DNA of 64,000 nucleotides from Aerococcus urinaehominis (GTDB lineage Bacteria > Bacillota > Bacilli > Lactobacillales > Aerococcaceae). How positions within the stretch are numbered: the stretch's first letter is position 1; each line of letters starts with the position of its first letter. Positions 52,238 through 59,385 of this stretch are shown piece after piece. The stretch lies in assembly GCF_001543245.1 (NCBI RefSeq), contig NZ_CP014163.1:1160387-1224386 (forward strand). Reading direction: 5' to 3'. The translations under genes were made by a program, and so were the position numbers. The notes under the pieces were generated by a model, which saw nothing but the letters and a program-made list of their open reading frames with translations, was not told the DNA's origin and made no database searches.

Positions 52238-52247
52238 ATTAGACGGT

Positions 52248-52296
52248 ATTGTTTGCCCCATGATTAGCCCCGGAAACCTAATTATGATCGAACAAT
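52248..52296 (+). ncRNA. Probable L13 leader (ribosomal protein autoregulatory hairpin)
   Basis: ATTGTT (52248-52253) pairs with AACAAT (52291-52296), and ATGATTAG pairs with CTAATTAT inside it, giving a two-part stem at the 5' end of the rplM transcript. Position and shape fit the L13 leader family of Firmicutes, which binds L13. I could not align it to the family model. Confidence 0.6.
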
Positions 52297-52321
52297 CTGA
52301 CAAGATAACGGAGGAAACAAA

Positions 52322-55160: not shown

Positions 55161-55189
55161 TTGACAATTATTGTCTGGCGACTTAAGAT
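55161..55189 (+). promoter_or_regulatory. Promoter of the attenuated ABC importer operon
   Basis: Consensus TTGACA (55161-55166), a 17-bp spacer and TAAGAT (55184-55189). Transcription would start near 55196, leaving a leader of about 350 nt. Confidence 0.8.
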
Positions 55190-55234
55190 ATCTTTAAGAT
55201 TTGTTAGAGTGAATTTATGAAAGGAGATACTAGG

Positions 55235-55315
55235 ATGACTTGCTTAAAATTAAATATAATTCTTGAGAACCTAGTGTCTCTTAATAATAAATATTACTTT
55301 AGCTTTTTTAGATAG
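55235..55315 (+). CDS. 26-residue aromatic-rich leader peptide
   Basis: An ATG at 55235 follows AAAGGAG at 8-9 bp. The peptide ends KYYFSFFR before TAG at 55313-55315: two Tyr and three Phe among the last seven codons, and no Trp. It lies in the leader of the ABC importer transcript, and the first RNA hairpin begins at the base after the stop. This is the arrangement of leader peptides such as pheL, where slow translation of aromatic codons controls folding. I infer a sensing role; it probably has no function as a protein. Confidence 0.75.
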   Translation: MTCLKLNIILENLVSLNNKYYFSFFR

Positions 55316-55518
55316 CTGTTTGTGTTGATGACTCAGTCATAGATGCAAACAGGGTAAACTGCCAAGTTTGTATCTATGAGAGCTAGAGCTATTTCACGTG
55401 ATGAAGCCCTCATAGAGATGAAAAACTCTTGATCGGCTTCGAGATTTCGAGGACATGCGCATACCAAAAGTGTTTTGGGGCCGGTTAAGTTTTTTGACAA
55501 ACTTGACCGGCTCTTTTT
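55316..55518 (+). promoter_or_regulatory. Transcription attenuator with competing helices, antiterminator and terminator
   Basis: Segment 1:2 pairs CTGTTTG (55316-55322) with CAAACAG (55346-55352), plus ATGAC/GTCAT. Segment 2:3 pairs 14 bp, TCATAGATGCAAAC (55337-55350) with GTTTGTATCTATGA (55366-55379). Segment 3:4 pairs CTATGAG (55374-55380) with CTCATAG (55409-55415). CTTGATCGGC (55428-55437) pairs over 10 bp with GCCGGTTAAG (55480-55489), which is the 5' arm of the terminator GCCGGTTAAGTTT/AAACTTGACCGGC (55480-55511) with its T tract. So each helix excludes the next. The T-box consensus GGTGG.ACCGCG is not present. Confidence 0.8.
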
Positions 55519-55548: not shown

Positions 55549-56526
55549 ATGAAAATTAATCGTTTAGCAAAATATAGTATCTCTTTATTAGCAGCCTTAT
55601 CTTTAGCAGCTTGTGGTAATGGTAACCAAGCTGGTGCTGGTAGCGCTGATGGCCAAGTTAAGGTTGGTGTGCTTCAGTTTATGGAGCACGAGTCATTAGA
55701 CCAAGCGCGTCAGGGTTTTGAAGCGGAGTTGGCAGACAATGGCTACAAGGCAGGCGATAAACTAGAATTAGCCTATTCAAATGCCCAAGGGGACCAATCT
55801 AACCTACAAGGTATTACCCAGCAGTTTGCTAACAGCCAGGATTTGGTCTTATCAATCGCTACCCCAGCTGCTCAAGCCATGTTGAATGCGGACCAATCGA
55901 CCCCACAGCTATTTACTACGGTAACTGACCCTGTATCAGCTGGCCTAGTTCAATCGATTGAAAAGCCAGGTAGGAATATGACGGGTACCTCTGATAGCGT
56001 GGATGTTGCTAAGGTGATTGACCTATTATTGACAACTAAGGATGATATCAAGACTATCGGGGTTATCTATAATTCAAGCGAGGTCAATTCAGAAGTCCAA
56101 TATCAACAAGCTAAAGAATATATTGAATCTAAAGGTCTTAAGGTGGAGCAAGCCACTGTCACTTCTACTAACGAAGTGCAAACAGCGATCACAGGCTTAG
56201 CCAACCGAGTTGATGCCGTTTACCTACCAACTGATAATACGGTAGCTTCTTCGATTGCAACAATCGGTAAAGTGCTAATGGAAACTAAGACCCCTTCAGT
56301 AGCAGGTTTCGATGCAGGTGTTGAAGGCGCCCTCTGTGCTTATGGGGTCGATTATGAAGCCCTAGGTCGGCAAACTGCCAAAATGGCTTTACGGATTTTA
56401 GAAGATGGTCAAGATCCTGCTAATATGCCAGTTGAGTATTCAGAAACGTTCACCATTCGTGTTAACCAAGAGATGGCAGATGCCCTAGGTATCGACGCTC
56501 AAGCCTTAGAAAACACTAAAATTTAG
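55549..56526 (+). CDS. ABC importer substrate-binding lipoprotein 1 (TrpX/ABC_sub_bind family)
   Basis: This 325-residue lipoprotein has lipobox LAAC (Cys near residue 22). It is a two-lobed binding protein with VKVGVLQFMEHESLDQARQGFEAEL, TTVTDPVSAGLVQSIEKPGRNMTGTSDSV, TIGVIYNSSEVNSEVQY and VYLPTDNTVASSI. The family (Pfam ABC_sub_bind) includes streptococcal TrpX, predicted to bind aromatic amino acids. It is the first gene after the attenuator, with AGGAGG before the ATG. It is the most diverged of three tandem paralogues. Confidence 0.9.
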   Translation: MKINRLAKYSISLLAALSLAACGNGNQAGAGSADGQVKVGVLQFMEHESLDQARQGFEAELADNGYKAGDKLELAYSNAQGDQSNLQGITQQFANSQDLVLSIATPAAQAMLNADQSTPQLFTTVTDPVSAGLVQSIEKPGRNMTGTSDSVDVAKVIDLLLTTKDDIKTIGVIYNSSEVNSEVQYQQAKEYIESKGLKVEQATVTSTNEVQTAITGLANRVDAVYLPTDNTVASSIATIGKVLMETKTPSVAGFDAGVEGALCAYGVDYEALGRQTAKMALRILEDGQDPANMPVEYSETFTIRVNQEMADALGIDAQALENTKI

Positions 56527-56544: not shown

Positions 56545-57510
56545 ATGGTAATTAAATTAAATAAGCTAGCCTTGCTAGCCCTTGCCTGTTTGGGGATAGC
56601 TGGTTGTCAATCTAGTCAGGAGGCAGACCAGCCCCATTCAGATCAACCGGTTAAGGTCGGTATCTTACAATTTTCAGAAAATCCTGCTATGGACCAAGCT
56701 CACGGTGGCTTTACCAGGGCCCTAGCTGATGCTGGTTATCAAGAGGGGGAGAATTTGATGATTGACTATGAGAATGCTGCCCAGGACCATTCTAACCTTT
56801 ATGGTATTGCCGAAAAGATGGCCCGTGAAGATGACCTACTTTTAGGATTGGGGACTCAGTCTAGTCAGGCTTTCGCTAATATCGAGGAAAAGAAACCAAT
56901 CGTTTTTACAGCGGTGACTGATGCTGAAGGTGCCCAGCTGGTTGCTAGCAACGAATCTCCTGAACGCAATGTTACCGGGACCTCAAATATGGTATTACCT
57001 ATGTCAGGGGTTGATTTCTTAGTGGCTAATGTTGAAAATTTGGAAACAATTGGCATCCTCTATAATGCTGGTGAGGTTAATTCCAATATTCAATATGAAA
57101 ACTGTAAAGCTTATGCTGAATCACTAGGGCTAAAAGTTGAAGGCATGACGATTACCAATACTAACGATGTTCAGGGGGCAATTACGGCCCTGGCTGGTAA
57201 GGTTGATGCTATTTATCTGCCAACAGATAATTCGATCGTGCAGACCGCCCCGACTATTGGTGAAGTTGTTAAACGAATGGGGGTACCCACCGTTGGTAGT
57301 GATAAAACTTCCTTGCCAGCTTGCTTAGCAACATTCGGTGTTGATTATGAGCGTATCGGTTACCGGGCCGGAGAAATGGCTGTTGAAATCTTAGCTGGTA
57401 GGGCACAACCGGCTGATATGCCGGTTGAACTACCAGACCACTTAGAACTAACTGTGAATCCAGAGATGGCAAAAGCTCTAGATTACGATCCAGGAGCCTT
57501 AGCCGATTAA
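56545..57510 (+). CDS. ABC importer substrate-binding lipoprotein 2 (paralogue)
   Basis: This 321-residue lipoprotein has lipobox IAGC (Cys near residue 21) and the same fold as its neighbours. The sequence QFSENPAMDQAHGGFTRAL, NAAQDHSNLYGIAEKMA and YLPTDNSIVQT is much closer to paralogue 3 than to paralogue 1. It lies 18 bp after gene 1. Keeping several receptors for one permease suggests widened or graded ligand range. Confidence 0.9.
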   Translation: MVIKLNKLALLALACLGIAGCQSSQEADQPHSDQPVKVGILQFSENPAMDQAHGGFTRALADAGYQEGENLMIDYENAAQDHSNLYGIAEKMAREDDLLLGLGTQSSQAFANIEEKKPIVFTAVTDAEGAQLVASNESPERNVTGTSNMVLPMSGVDFLVANVENLETIGILYNAGEVNSNIQYENCKAYAESLGLKVEGMTITNTNDVQGAITALAGKVDAIYLPTDNSIVQTAPTIGEVVKRMGVPTVGSDKTSLPACLATFGVDYERIGYRAGEMAVEILAGRAQPADMPVELPDHLELTVNPEMAKALDYDPGALAD

Positions 57511-57531: not shown

Positions 57532-58488
57532 ATGTCCAGTCGATTTAGCTGGTGGGCCATGTGTTTGATCTTGTTACTTGGCCTGACAGGTTGCCAGCAA
57601 GCTGACCAAGATCCAAGTGTTAAACAGGTAGGTATTTTACAATTTTCGGAAAATCCTACTATGGACCAAGTAGTAGCCGGTTTTAAAAAGGGGCTCGCTG
57701 ATCATGGCTTTCGGGAAGATGATAATCTAGTGATTGATTTAGAAAATGCTGCCCAAGACCATTCTAATTTGTATGGGATTGCTGGCAAGATGACCCGGGT
57801 CTATGACCTTAGTTTAGGTTTAGGCACCCCGCCTACCCAGGCTTTGGCGAATGCGGGCAACGACAACCCGATTGTTTTTGCGGCAGTTTCCGATCCCAAG
57901 GGCGCCAACTTGGTCGCCTCTTATGACCGGCCTGGCGGCAATGTGACTGGGGCTTCTGATATGGTCCTGCCAAACCAGGGTATAGATTTCCTGCGCCAGC
58001 ATGTACCCGAACTTAAAACTATTGGTGTCCTTTACAATGCGGGAGAAGTTAATTCGCAAATCCAATTTGAGAATGTGAAGGCTTATGGTGAGTCAGTTGG
58101 TCTCAAAGTTGAGGGGATGACGATTACTAATACTAATGATGTGCAACATGCCATCACCGCTTTGGCCGGTAAGGTAGATGCCGTTTATTTACCGACTGAC
58201 CACTCGATCGTCCAAACTATTGCCACGATTGCAAATACTTTACATGCTATGAAAGTGCCAGCAGTAGGCGCCGATGTGGCCCAGCTTGAGGCCTGTATTG
58301 CAACTTTTGGTGTGAACTATGAAGAGAGAGGGTATCGAGCAGGGGAGATGGCGGCTGAAATTTTACAGGGGCAAGCTAGTCCAGCTGAATTAGCGGTTGA
58401 CCTGCCAGATAAATTAGACAAAACAATAAATGATGATATGGCCCACCACTTGGGCTTTGATCCCAAGACTTTAAAGGAGGAAAATTAG
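57532..58488 (+). CDS. ABC importer substrate-binding lipoprotein 3 (paralogue)
   Basis: This 318-residue lipoprotein has lipobox LTGC (Cys near residue 21) and shares long stretches with paralogue 2 (QFSENPTMDQ, NAAQDHSNLYGIAGKM, NAGEVNSQIQFEN, VEGMTITNTNDVQ). It carries YLPTDHSIVQT where paralogue 2 has YLPTDNSIVQT. AGGAGG near its end serves the permease gene, whose ATG is 3 bp after the stop. The pair 2/3 probably arose by a recent duplication. Confidence 0.9.
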   Translation: MSSRFSWWAMCLILLLGLTGCQQADQDPSVKQVGILQFSENPTMDQVVAGFKKGLADHGFREDDNLVIDLENAAQDHSNLYGIAGKMTRVYDLSLGLGTPPTQALANAGNDNPIVFAAVSDPKGANLVASYDRPGGNVTGASDMVLPNQGIDFLRQHVPELKTIGVLYNAGEVNSQIQFENVKAYGESVGLKVEGMTITNTNDVQHAITALAGKVDAVYLPTDHSIVQTIATIANTLHAMKVPAVGADVAQLEACIATFGVNYEERGYRAGEMAAEILQGQASPAELAVDLPDKLDKTINDDMAHHLGFDPKTLKEEN

Positions 58489-58491
58489 AAA

Positions 58492-59385
58492 ATGGATTTA
58501 CTACTATCAAGTGTTGCACAAGGTTTCTTGTGGGCTATGCTAGGCATGGGGGTCTACTTGACCTTTAGAATTTTAGATATGGCTGATATGTCAGCTGAAG
58601 GGACTTTTCCATTAGGTGGTGCGGTGTCAGCAGTCTTAATCGTGAACGGTATGAATCCCATTCTGGCTACCCTAGTTGCCATGGTTGCCGGTGCCTTAGC
58701 TGGTGCTGTAACGGGTCTTTTACATACTAAAATGAAAATTCCAACCCTATTATCAGGGGTACTGGTAATGACCGGTCTTTATTCAATTAACTTAAGGGTT
58801 ATGGGTAAGGCTAATTTGCCCTTACTCGGTCAAGATACGGTAATTAGCCTGTTTGAATCTTTTGGCCTTAACCGAGTGATGGCAACAATGCTGGTCGGCC
58901 TAATCTTTGTTAGCCTAGTGATTTTAGCCCTAGTCTTGTTTGTAAATACCTCTTACGGTCTGGGCTTTAGAGCAACAGGGGATAACAATGTGATGGCAGA
59001 GGCAAACGGGATTAAGACTGAATCTATTAAGGTAGTTGGTTATATGCTATCTAATGGTTTGATTGCTTTATCAGGTGCTTTAATTGCCCAATCTAATGGT
59101 TACGCTGATGTCGGTATGGGAACTGGTACAATTGTTATTGGCTTGGCTTCATTTATTATCGCTGAAGTTATTTTACGCAGTATTTCTTTTGGCAAGCGAC
59201 TAGTAACGATTGTTATAGGCTCTATTATCTACCGGGTGGTTATTGATACCATCATGCAACAAAATATATTGCCAATTCTACCAAGTGATATCCGTATCTT
59301 ATCTTCAATCGCACTTGCCTTGATCTTATGGTCGCCGGAAGTATCAGCTTGGATGCGTAATCGTAAAGCTAAACAGGGCCAATAG
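58492..59385 (+). CDS. ABC importer permease (TrpY-like, COG4120)
   Basis: This 297-residue membrane protein has eight or nine TM segments, starting SSVAQGFLWAMLGMGVYLTFRILDMADMSAEGTFPLGGAVSA. That is the family start with the conserved Asp-Met-Ser-Ala-Glu-Gly. The EAA-like loop is GFRATGDNNVMAEANGIKTESIKVVGYMLSNGLIALSGAL. It forms the channel, used with the three binding proteins and the ATPase encoded 10 bp downstream. Confidence 0.92.
   Translation: MDLLLSSVAQGFLWAMLGMGVYLTFRILDMADMSAEGTFPLGGAVSAVLIVNGMNPILATLVAMVAGALAGAVTGLLHTKMKIPTLLSGVLVMTGLYSINLRVMGKANLPLLGQDTVISLFESFGLNRVMATMLVGLIFVSLVILALVLFVNTSYGLGFRATGDNNVMAEANGIKTESIKVVGYMLSNGLIALSGALIAQSNGYADVGMGTGTIVIGLASFIIAEVILRSISFGKRLVTIVIGSIIYRVVIDTIMQQNILPILPSDIRILSSIALALILWSPEVSAWMRNRKAKQGQ

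Follow-up and report, generated by a model that had tools for sequence, protein, structure and literature searches.

Ribosome-mediated attenuation of transcription is classical, and the trp, phe and ilv attenuators of Proteobacteria follow the same leader-peptide logic as the one considered here. Panina et al. reportedly treated aromatic regulation in low-GC Gram-positives in 2003, and that work may touch related signals. Branched-chain leader attenuators are already known from Gram-positives: ilv attenuators are on record for S. aureus and Listeria, and predictions exist for L. lactis and Streptococcus (PMC6123439). Leaders for His have been predicted in Bacilli and some other Firmicutes, as the available portions of two reports state (PMC2965389, PMC9413887). 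A preliminary description of the locus studied here had contrasted leader-peptide attenuation with the T-boxes usual in Lactobacillales; that T-boxes are common there is correct, whereas the notion that such attenuation is foreign to Firmicutes does not stand. The nearest Rfam family is RF02863, 'Enterococcus sRNA 2410', and a second family, the trpB motif RF04312, has been put forward as a strong riboswitch candidate, the authors being unable to exclude a classic attenuator (PMC11109978).

The window, that is the whole stretch of DNA analysed, comprises 64,000 nucleotides of Aerococcus urinaehominis (NZ_CP014163.1, positions 1,160,387 to 1,224,386). The leader and operon contain the following features.

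55161..55189, + strand: promoter-like site TTGACA-17-TAAGAT, 10/12, a consensus match only
55220..55226, + strand: ribosome-binding site AAAGGAG of the leader ORF
55235..55315, + strand: leader peptide ORF of 26 codons, sequence MTCLKLNIILENLVSLNNKYYFSFFR*
55292-55309, + strand: control codons TAT TAC TTT - TTT TTT, inside the leader ORF
55297..55314, + strand: arm A, within the control codons; predicted partner D when the ribosome is absent
55316..55333, + strand: arm B; partner C
55335..55352, + strand: arm C; partner B or D
55366..55388, + strand: arm D, the hub; partners A, C or E
55405..55416, + strand: arm E; partner D (on) or F (off)
55425..55445, + strand: arm F; partner E or the terminator 5' arm G
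55477..55518, + strand: strong intrinsic terminator comprising arms G and H and a U run; also placed at 55477-55514
55549..56526, + strand: receptor 1, PF04392; Phe/Tyr at the two specificity positions
56545..57510, + strand: receptor 2, PF04392; Asp/Tyr at the specificity positions
57532..58488, + strand: receptor 3, PF04392; Asp/Tyr at the specificity positions
58492..59385, + strand: permease, PF02653
59396..60202, + strand: ATPase, PF00005

The preliminary description had pointed to a 26-codon frame with a good ribosome-binding site in front of a three-receptor ABC importer, and both the frame, which ends with a TAG stop at 55313-55315, and the gene order agree with it. Tyr or Phe occupies five of the final seven codons and Trp none, again as described, and base 55316, directly after the stop, is the start of the first hairpin (arms 55316-55333 and 55335-55352). 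The fold of the leader RNA outdid 100 of 100 shuffles (z -7.2). A divergent T-box would be a familiar device in this lineage: 17 T-boxes were detected in the window genome (E up to 0.01), all 76 genomes of the family contain them, and related Trp importers bear them. T-box models, however, gave no match in the window leader at E up to 10, in line with the preliminary description, and we rejected this reading on that ground as vanishingly improbable.

Among the Rfam matches to the window leader, RF04312 was absent. RF02863 matched with 43.6 bits (E 5.5e-6, model positions 1-196), below its gathering score of 61 bits, and the match begins within the control codons. A ribosomal protein L13 leader (RF00555, 49.5 bits) was also noted in the window at 52245-52298. 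Under strict filters (E up to 0.01), RF02863 matched 222 of 395 Lactobacillales genomes in 57 of 80 genera, 98 of these genomes above the curated score; 173 order genomes and all 14 control genomes were without a match. A scan of the phylum with the same model returned three of 398 genomes, all from the same order and the window's own among them.

A pattern scan of named genomes yielded at least 80 loci, of which 72 were kept. Among the matches listed, these belong mostly to Enterococcus and Streptococcus, with others from Tetragenococcus, Vagococcus, Lactobacillus and Atopobacter, one from Aerococcus and three from Clostridium/Eubacterium; the leader from this named Aerococcus, like its receptor, is similar to its counterparts in two genomes belonging to the window's genus. 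Six loci outside Firmicutes (L082, L088, L101, L116, L117, L139) as well as L096 and L132 were dropped as chance hits without the arm-D motif. The motif is also missing from L110, L127, L136, L143, L149 and L152, which were kept for their typical leader. Arm D differs in Lactobacillus, L136 runs off the locus end, no terminator was found in L045 and L136, and L069, which has a different end, was excluded.

A model termed R1 was built from 78 deduplicated elements (141 before reduction), Tyr/Phe elements only. In the window's own family, Aerococcaceae, where the preliminary description had proposed to look for conservation, R1 matched 50 of 76 genomes, which represent 20 of 21 genera. Across the phylum it matched four of 398 genomes, one of them outside the order, in front of an NSS-like transporter with a Phe-rich leader. 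The window genome itself carries a second copy, whose leader MLVNCSLSIQSAYYFSFFR (ending in YYFSFFR) precedes aroC-aroA, aroA being read from sequence. Far from being a local curiosity, the element forms a wide family, and it has sisters for Trp and for branched-chain amino acids.

Its Rfam type, sRNA, and its Rfam name imply a trans-acting small RNA, and a 195-nt RNA with two transcripts on Northern blots is described for E. faecium in the available text of PMC5593968. In the loci read, the element nevertheless starts within an ORF that has its own ribosome-binding site, and a terminator marks its end; wherever the contig is long enough, amino-acid genes follow closely downstream in the same orientation. 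A terminated leader would itself resemble an sRNA. RF02863 as a stand-alone sRNA was rejected on this gene context, and a trans-acting role is very unlikely.

As expected of a leader-peptide attenuator, an in-frame start and stop are present in all 78 deduplicated elements. In 73 the start is an ATG whose ribosome-binding site reaches at least -4 kcal/mol in strength, the site being weaker in the other five, and the Streptococcus leaders have weak sites. The last eight codons hold five Tyr/Phe in 60 elements, four in 12, three in five and six in one, so that 73 of 78 have at least four; the conservation of frame and aromatic codons in relatives that the preliminary description had proposed to test for was found. 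The upstream part of these leaders contains 2.7% Tyr/Phe, and a single Trp occurs among 1562 residues. Position -2, which lies outside both the search pattern and the RF02863 model, is Tyr in 37 and Phe in 30 elements (67 of 78); aromatic character is therefore kept while the residue changes.

A further model, R2, starts past the control codons; it was made from 22 aromatic and 11 branched-chain elements and searched in 178 order genomes. The 70 R2 loci read (30 as returned, 40 hand-picked across genera) all have four to six Tyr/Phe in the final 11 residues, a count that denotes consistency rather than an independent estimate. R2 finds all three leader classes: at least 14 further listed matches outside the 70 coincide with RF04312 places, eight of which, once read, bear Trp codons, and another listed match falls on L319, a branched-chain locus. 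In the set of 70, the ribosome-binding site is good in 62 leaders, and 58 leaders differ from every one of the 78. A translatable leader ORF and control codons for the amino acids of the pathway were both found.

A nascent-peptide arrest leader of the TnaC/Erm-leader type would respond, through the sequence of its peptide, to a drug or to free amino acid. In favour of this reading, the end (Y/F)YFS(Y/F)FR* and an upstream LNN are conserved, LNN with synonymous changes. Yet sister leaders with quite different residues share related RNA, and in L319, L322, L335 and L337 Gly, Asn or Glu replace Ser and Arg, which fits codons kept for pairing; arrest by the peptide is highly unlikely. The Leu-Asn-Asn in question stands just before the control codons in the window (55280-55288) and recurs in relatives and also in some Trp leaders.

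Turning back to attenuation, the inverted repeats of the window leader form a chain of mutually exclusive arms. Across the 78 elements, two-sided changes occur in nine of 12 B:C pairs and six of 18 A:D pairs, counts reached by none of 500 shuffles, although these controls ignore relatedness. One A:D position is unpaired in 75 of 78 elements, a U-U mismatch. C:D shows two-sided changes in five of 12 pairs, and none of 500 shuffles, which again ignore relatedness, is as high. The C:D signal is modest: three pairs and seven cells remain when it is shifted by +2 columns, and the number of pair types is no higher than in shuffles (129/500). D:E covaries weakly (two of nine pairs, three cells; equalled by eight of 500 shuffles). 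When 28 aromatic and 13 branched-chain elements are taken together, A:D has two-sided changes in 12 of 18 pairs, with 71 cells compared with 27 after shuffling. Codons and arm D often change together, as in TTTAGC/GCTAAA, ATTAGC/GCTAAT, TACAGC/GCTGT and AACAAC/GTTGTT; the fit is poorer in L307, L314, L319, L320, L039 and L042, and L306, L333 and L343 are longer by one codon. The F:G antiterminator outdoes 95% of shuffles in 61 of 73 elements, five of the 78 having been left out owing to a first terminator too near or a region too short. In the window it outdoes all 100 shuffles (-19.7 kcal/mol vs a shuffle mean of -10.4 kcal/mol). The two-sided changes support the alternative helices; antiterminator and terminator are mutually exclusive, the covariation of D:E alone being weak.

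The effect of ribosome position was calculated by folding with the 5' end blocked up to the ribosome edge, edge 0 being the second T of the TTT codon (55299). In the window, the probability of D:E is 0.00 up to edge 0, 0.19-0.28 at +4 to +6, 0.52-0.82 at +8 to +16, 0.34 at +18 and 0.01 at +20; from +20 to +38 it is at most 0.02, with C:D at 0.97 or above. Family means of D:E run from 0.1 to 0.77-0.86 at +4 to +16 and then to 0.25-0.32 in 70 of the 78 elements, eight being left out for missing alignment columns. The full off-on-off pattern (margin 0.2) is seen in 51 of these 70 and the reverse in none. In the aroC copy of the window genome, D:E is 0.04-0.11 at +20 to +24 and returns to about 0.7 at +28 to +32. 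If a ribosome is taken to shield some 12 bases, counted from the codon in its A site, stalls on the five Tyr/Phe codons correspond to edges +5, +8, +11, +17 and +20, and the stop codon to +26. The second Tyr and the first Phe codon then lie clearly within the ON window; the first Tyr codon and the fourth aromatic one come close to its limits, and the last Phe is on the OFF side. At the edge of a first-Tyr stall, D:E is low in the window (0.19-0.28).

Further downstream, the window F:G helix showed no switch in equilibrium folding, remaining at 0.92 throughout. Pairing of the terminator 5' arm has family means of 0.55, 0.7 and 0.61, with shuffles flat near 0.5 (p 2e-8, the shuffles being nested), and an ON/OFF contrast above 0.1 in only 37 of 78 elements vs 92 of 468 shuffles. 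Once F is transcribed, the equilibrium prefers C:D with E:F even when A is covered, and in the window folding E:F has a probability of 0.73 before G is made. Given the flat F:G and this equilibrium preference, the relay would need co-transcriptional kinetics. In silico, ribosome position alters the structure in the right order for D:E only.

Sequence and computation provide the ORF, the helices, their covariation (weak for D:E), the gene linkage and the ON window of D:E; for stalling, a kinetic relay from D:E to F:G and a starvation response, we infer the following course. Without a ribosome, A would pair with D and E with F, and the terminator would form (off). During a shortage of Tyr or Phe, a ribosome stalled on the aromatic codons would cover A; B:C and D:E could then form, F would be freed for the terminator 5' arm G and polymerase would read on into the putative Tyr/Phe importer operon (on). 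With plentiful Tyr and Phe, a ribosome at the stop codon would cover A and B, so that C:D, E:F and the terminator would form (off). The relay would require that E:F forms first when D is busy and that D:E forms before F emerges. The window leader very probably acts as a ribosome-mediated transcription attenuator in front of a Tyr/Phe importer, the signal being charged tRNA-Tyr and tRNA-Phe; the attenuation reading offered by the preliminary description is supported.

Genes behind Tyr/Phe leaders include aroE-aroF-aroB-aroC, pheA-tyrA, pheA-aroF-aroB-aroA and aroC-tyrA-aroA-aroK, furthermore PF04392 importers, NSS transporters (clostridia) and polar-amino-acid ABC importers; in L324 chorismate mutase is the second gene. 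Family models confirm representatives of aroC, pheA, tyrA, aroF, aroB, aroE, aroA and aroK as well as of NSS, chorismate mutase and polar ABC genes, several of them under the curated cut-off; the other targets were read from sequence. Polar-amino-acid ABC importers were seen behind the leaders of L315, L342, L037, L389, L393 and L410, assigned by family models in L315 and by resemblance in the other five, and are predicted to import aromatic amino acids. The element precedes NSS-type transporters in L107, L124, L141 and L273 (clostridia and one genome of another order), with PF00209 identified for L107 and resemblance used for the rest; in L107 and L141 the E:F hairpin has its own U run. In mitis-group streptococci including S. 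pneumoniae (L055, L153), a Tyr/Phe leader with a weak ribosome-binding site is located on an importer whose receptor is unlike the Trp receptor SP1069. The leader of L396 (..QYWFSYFRESL) contains an additional Trp codon and is followed by an aminotransferase-like gene.

The closest solved relative of receptor 1 by sequence is the Tyr-binder CD0873 of C. difficile (6HNI, 248 bits). In CD0873, Glu263 contacts the Tyr hydroxyl, and Tyr279 corresponds to Gln in the Trp-binder SP1069, as given in the accessible part of PMC6816091. Receptors behind leaders were gathered by HMM search. Among 103 receptors that follow Tyr/Phe leaders, many of them near-identical, 102 carry Tyr at position 279 and the remaining one is truncated; in the low-scoring family set of 33, this position is Tyr in 31, Phe in one and unaligned in one. 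Position 263 is Ser in 90 of the 103 and therefore does not settle Tyr vs Phe. Window receptors 1, 2 and 3 have Phe, Asp and Asp at position 263 and Tyr at position 279 in each case; the Trp-type Gln of SP1069 is absent from all three, and at 297, 252 and 258 bits they miss the cut-off of 390 bits of the TrpX model NF041285. These two residues suggest that receptors 2 and 3 may favour Tyr. Tyr and Phe rather than Trp as ligands, proposed by the preliminary description from the codons, gain independent support from the specificity residues of the receptors.

The counterpart was sought behind RF04312, since the 32 of 32 Gln at L202-L231 say nothing alone, these loci having been retrieved by their Gln-type receptor. 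In this unbiased test, 24 of 30 RF04312 loci had such a receptor, and position 279 was Gln in 24 of 25 receptors, one being truncated. Gln was also found behind the Trp leaders L262 and L323. Scanning of 18 of 30 SP1069-type (Trp) receptor loci gave ten T-boxes, five RF04312 matches, three with neither and no RF02863. RF04312 matches 98 of 198 order genomes. In all 30 RF04312 loci inspected (L232-L261), an ORF that contains Trp codons lies upstream, its end typically being WQSWRR* or WQNWRR*. R1 matched nine of 11 tested RF04312 loci on the expected strand (E <0.01; 1e-9 in L257) and the window genome's own Trp copy (E 0.003), all E-values being rough. That copy (RF04312 at G000:C1:71328; L262:458-523) reads MFTFTTANFSWRWPHRVVVDM* and precedes a paralogous importer with a Gln-type receptor.

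Branched-chain leaders emerged from the lower-scoring family matches: 40 of 99 R1 matches, hand-picked and mostly lower-scoring, comprised 26 aromatic leaders, 13 branched-chain and one Trp leader. Automatic classing left six of the 40 without a downstream tag; on reading, five of these proved LivJ-like and the sixth a PF04392-type operon. All 13 branched-chain leaders (L306-L311, L314, L319, L326, L329, L333, L337, L343), ending in IISIIR*, LLISVIR* and the like, precede ilvB (two), ilvA (three), ilvE (two) or LivJ-like genes (six), whereas none of the 26 aromatic leaders has an ilv or LivJ-like gene among its first downstream ORFs. The nominal Fisher value of 1e-10 for leader class vs gene is only descriptive, given that relatedness makes the sequences non-independent. 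One ilvB, two ilvA and one ilvE passed NCBIfam cut-offs in at least one model, one LivJ match was under its cut-off, and the other ilv and LivJ-like genes were read from sequence. RF02863 matched eight of the 13 loci (E 4.5e-5 to 0.064), all under the gathering score.

Conserved hairpins and a terminator could also belong to a metabolite riboswitch, the published view of the sister motif RF04312 in the available text (PMC11109978). A riboswitch does not account well for a frame with start, stop and mostly good ribosome-binding site, nor for a conserved block that lies within codons and varies with the amino acid of the pathway (Tyr/Phe, Trp or Ile/Leu/Val) while pairing is largely kept. We consider it extremely unlikely for the window leader, and RF04312 looks like a Trp leader-peptide attenuator judging from its codons. 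The window leader, read as an attenuator, is probably a member of a codon-programmable superfamily in which control codons are swapped on one chassis with arm D matching, and in which substrates can be predicted. The conserved chassis would consist of the stop codon, B, C, hub D and E and would be directed to Tyr/Phe, Trp or Ile/Leu/Val by its control codons; these data suggest one attenuator re-coded for different amino acids. If true, the superfamily would be the translational counterpart of the T-box in Lactobacillales, and it would unite RF02863 (an sRNA), RF04312 (a riboswitch candidate) and branched-chain leaders that are sub-threshold in Rfam. It would provide a testable mechanism for an 'sRNA' matched in over half of the sampled Lactobacillales genomes and recast a published orphan riboswitch candidate as a Trp attenuator. 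Control codons would then predict ligands for importers of enterococci, streptococci and food bacteria, including transporters annotated for other substrates.

Literature searches in an open-access library brought up no account that we recognised of this leader. As far as these searches show, the Tyr/Phe leader behind RF02863, its regulon and the hub-and-relay layout are new, as are the interpretation of RF04312 as a Trp element and the idea of one chassis shared by leaders with exchanged codons. RF02863 is a homologous RNA, described as an sRNA in a paper whose main text lacks the word 'leader' (PMC5593968). RF04312 has the same layout and cross-matches with R1, but its uORF ends in WQ(S/N)WRR* and its Trp codons stand before Gln-type receptors. 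The trpXYZ genes of S. suis and S. pneumoniae encode a paralogous importer family under a T-box with a UGG specifier, according to the available text of PMC9382623. SP1069-like receptors have Gln where leader-controlled receptors have Tyr, and CD0873 has Glu at the Tyr-OH contact, in contrast to Phe, Asp and Asp in the window receptors. The Acholeplasma aroF leader uORFC-13-1, compared without alignment, is a predicted Phe-coding uORF before an aromatic gene, reported in the accessible part of its source only from Acholeplasma and environmental sequence (PMC8632094). The ilv attenuators of S. aureus and Listeria share the logic that slow leader translation prevents the terminator, as the available text has it (PMC6123439). 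Set beside the known attenuators without alignment, the leader described here differs in having a hub arm D with three partners and an extra relay hairpin before the terminator.
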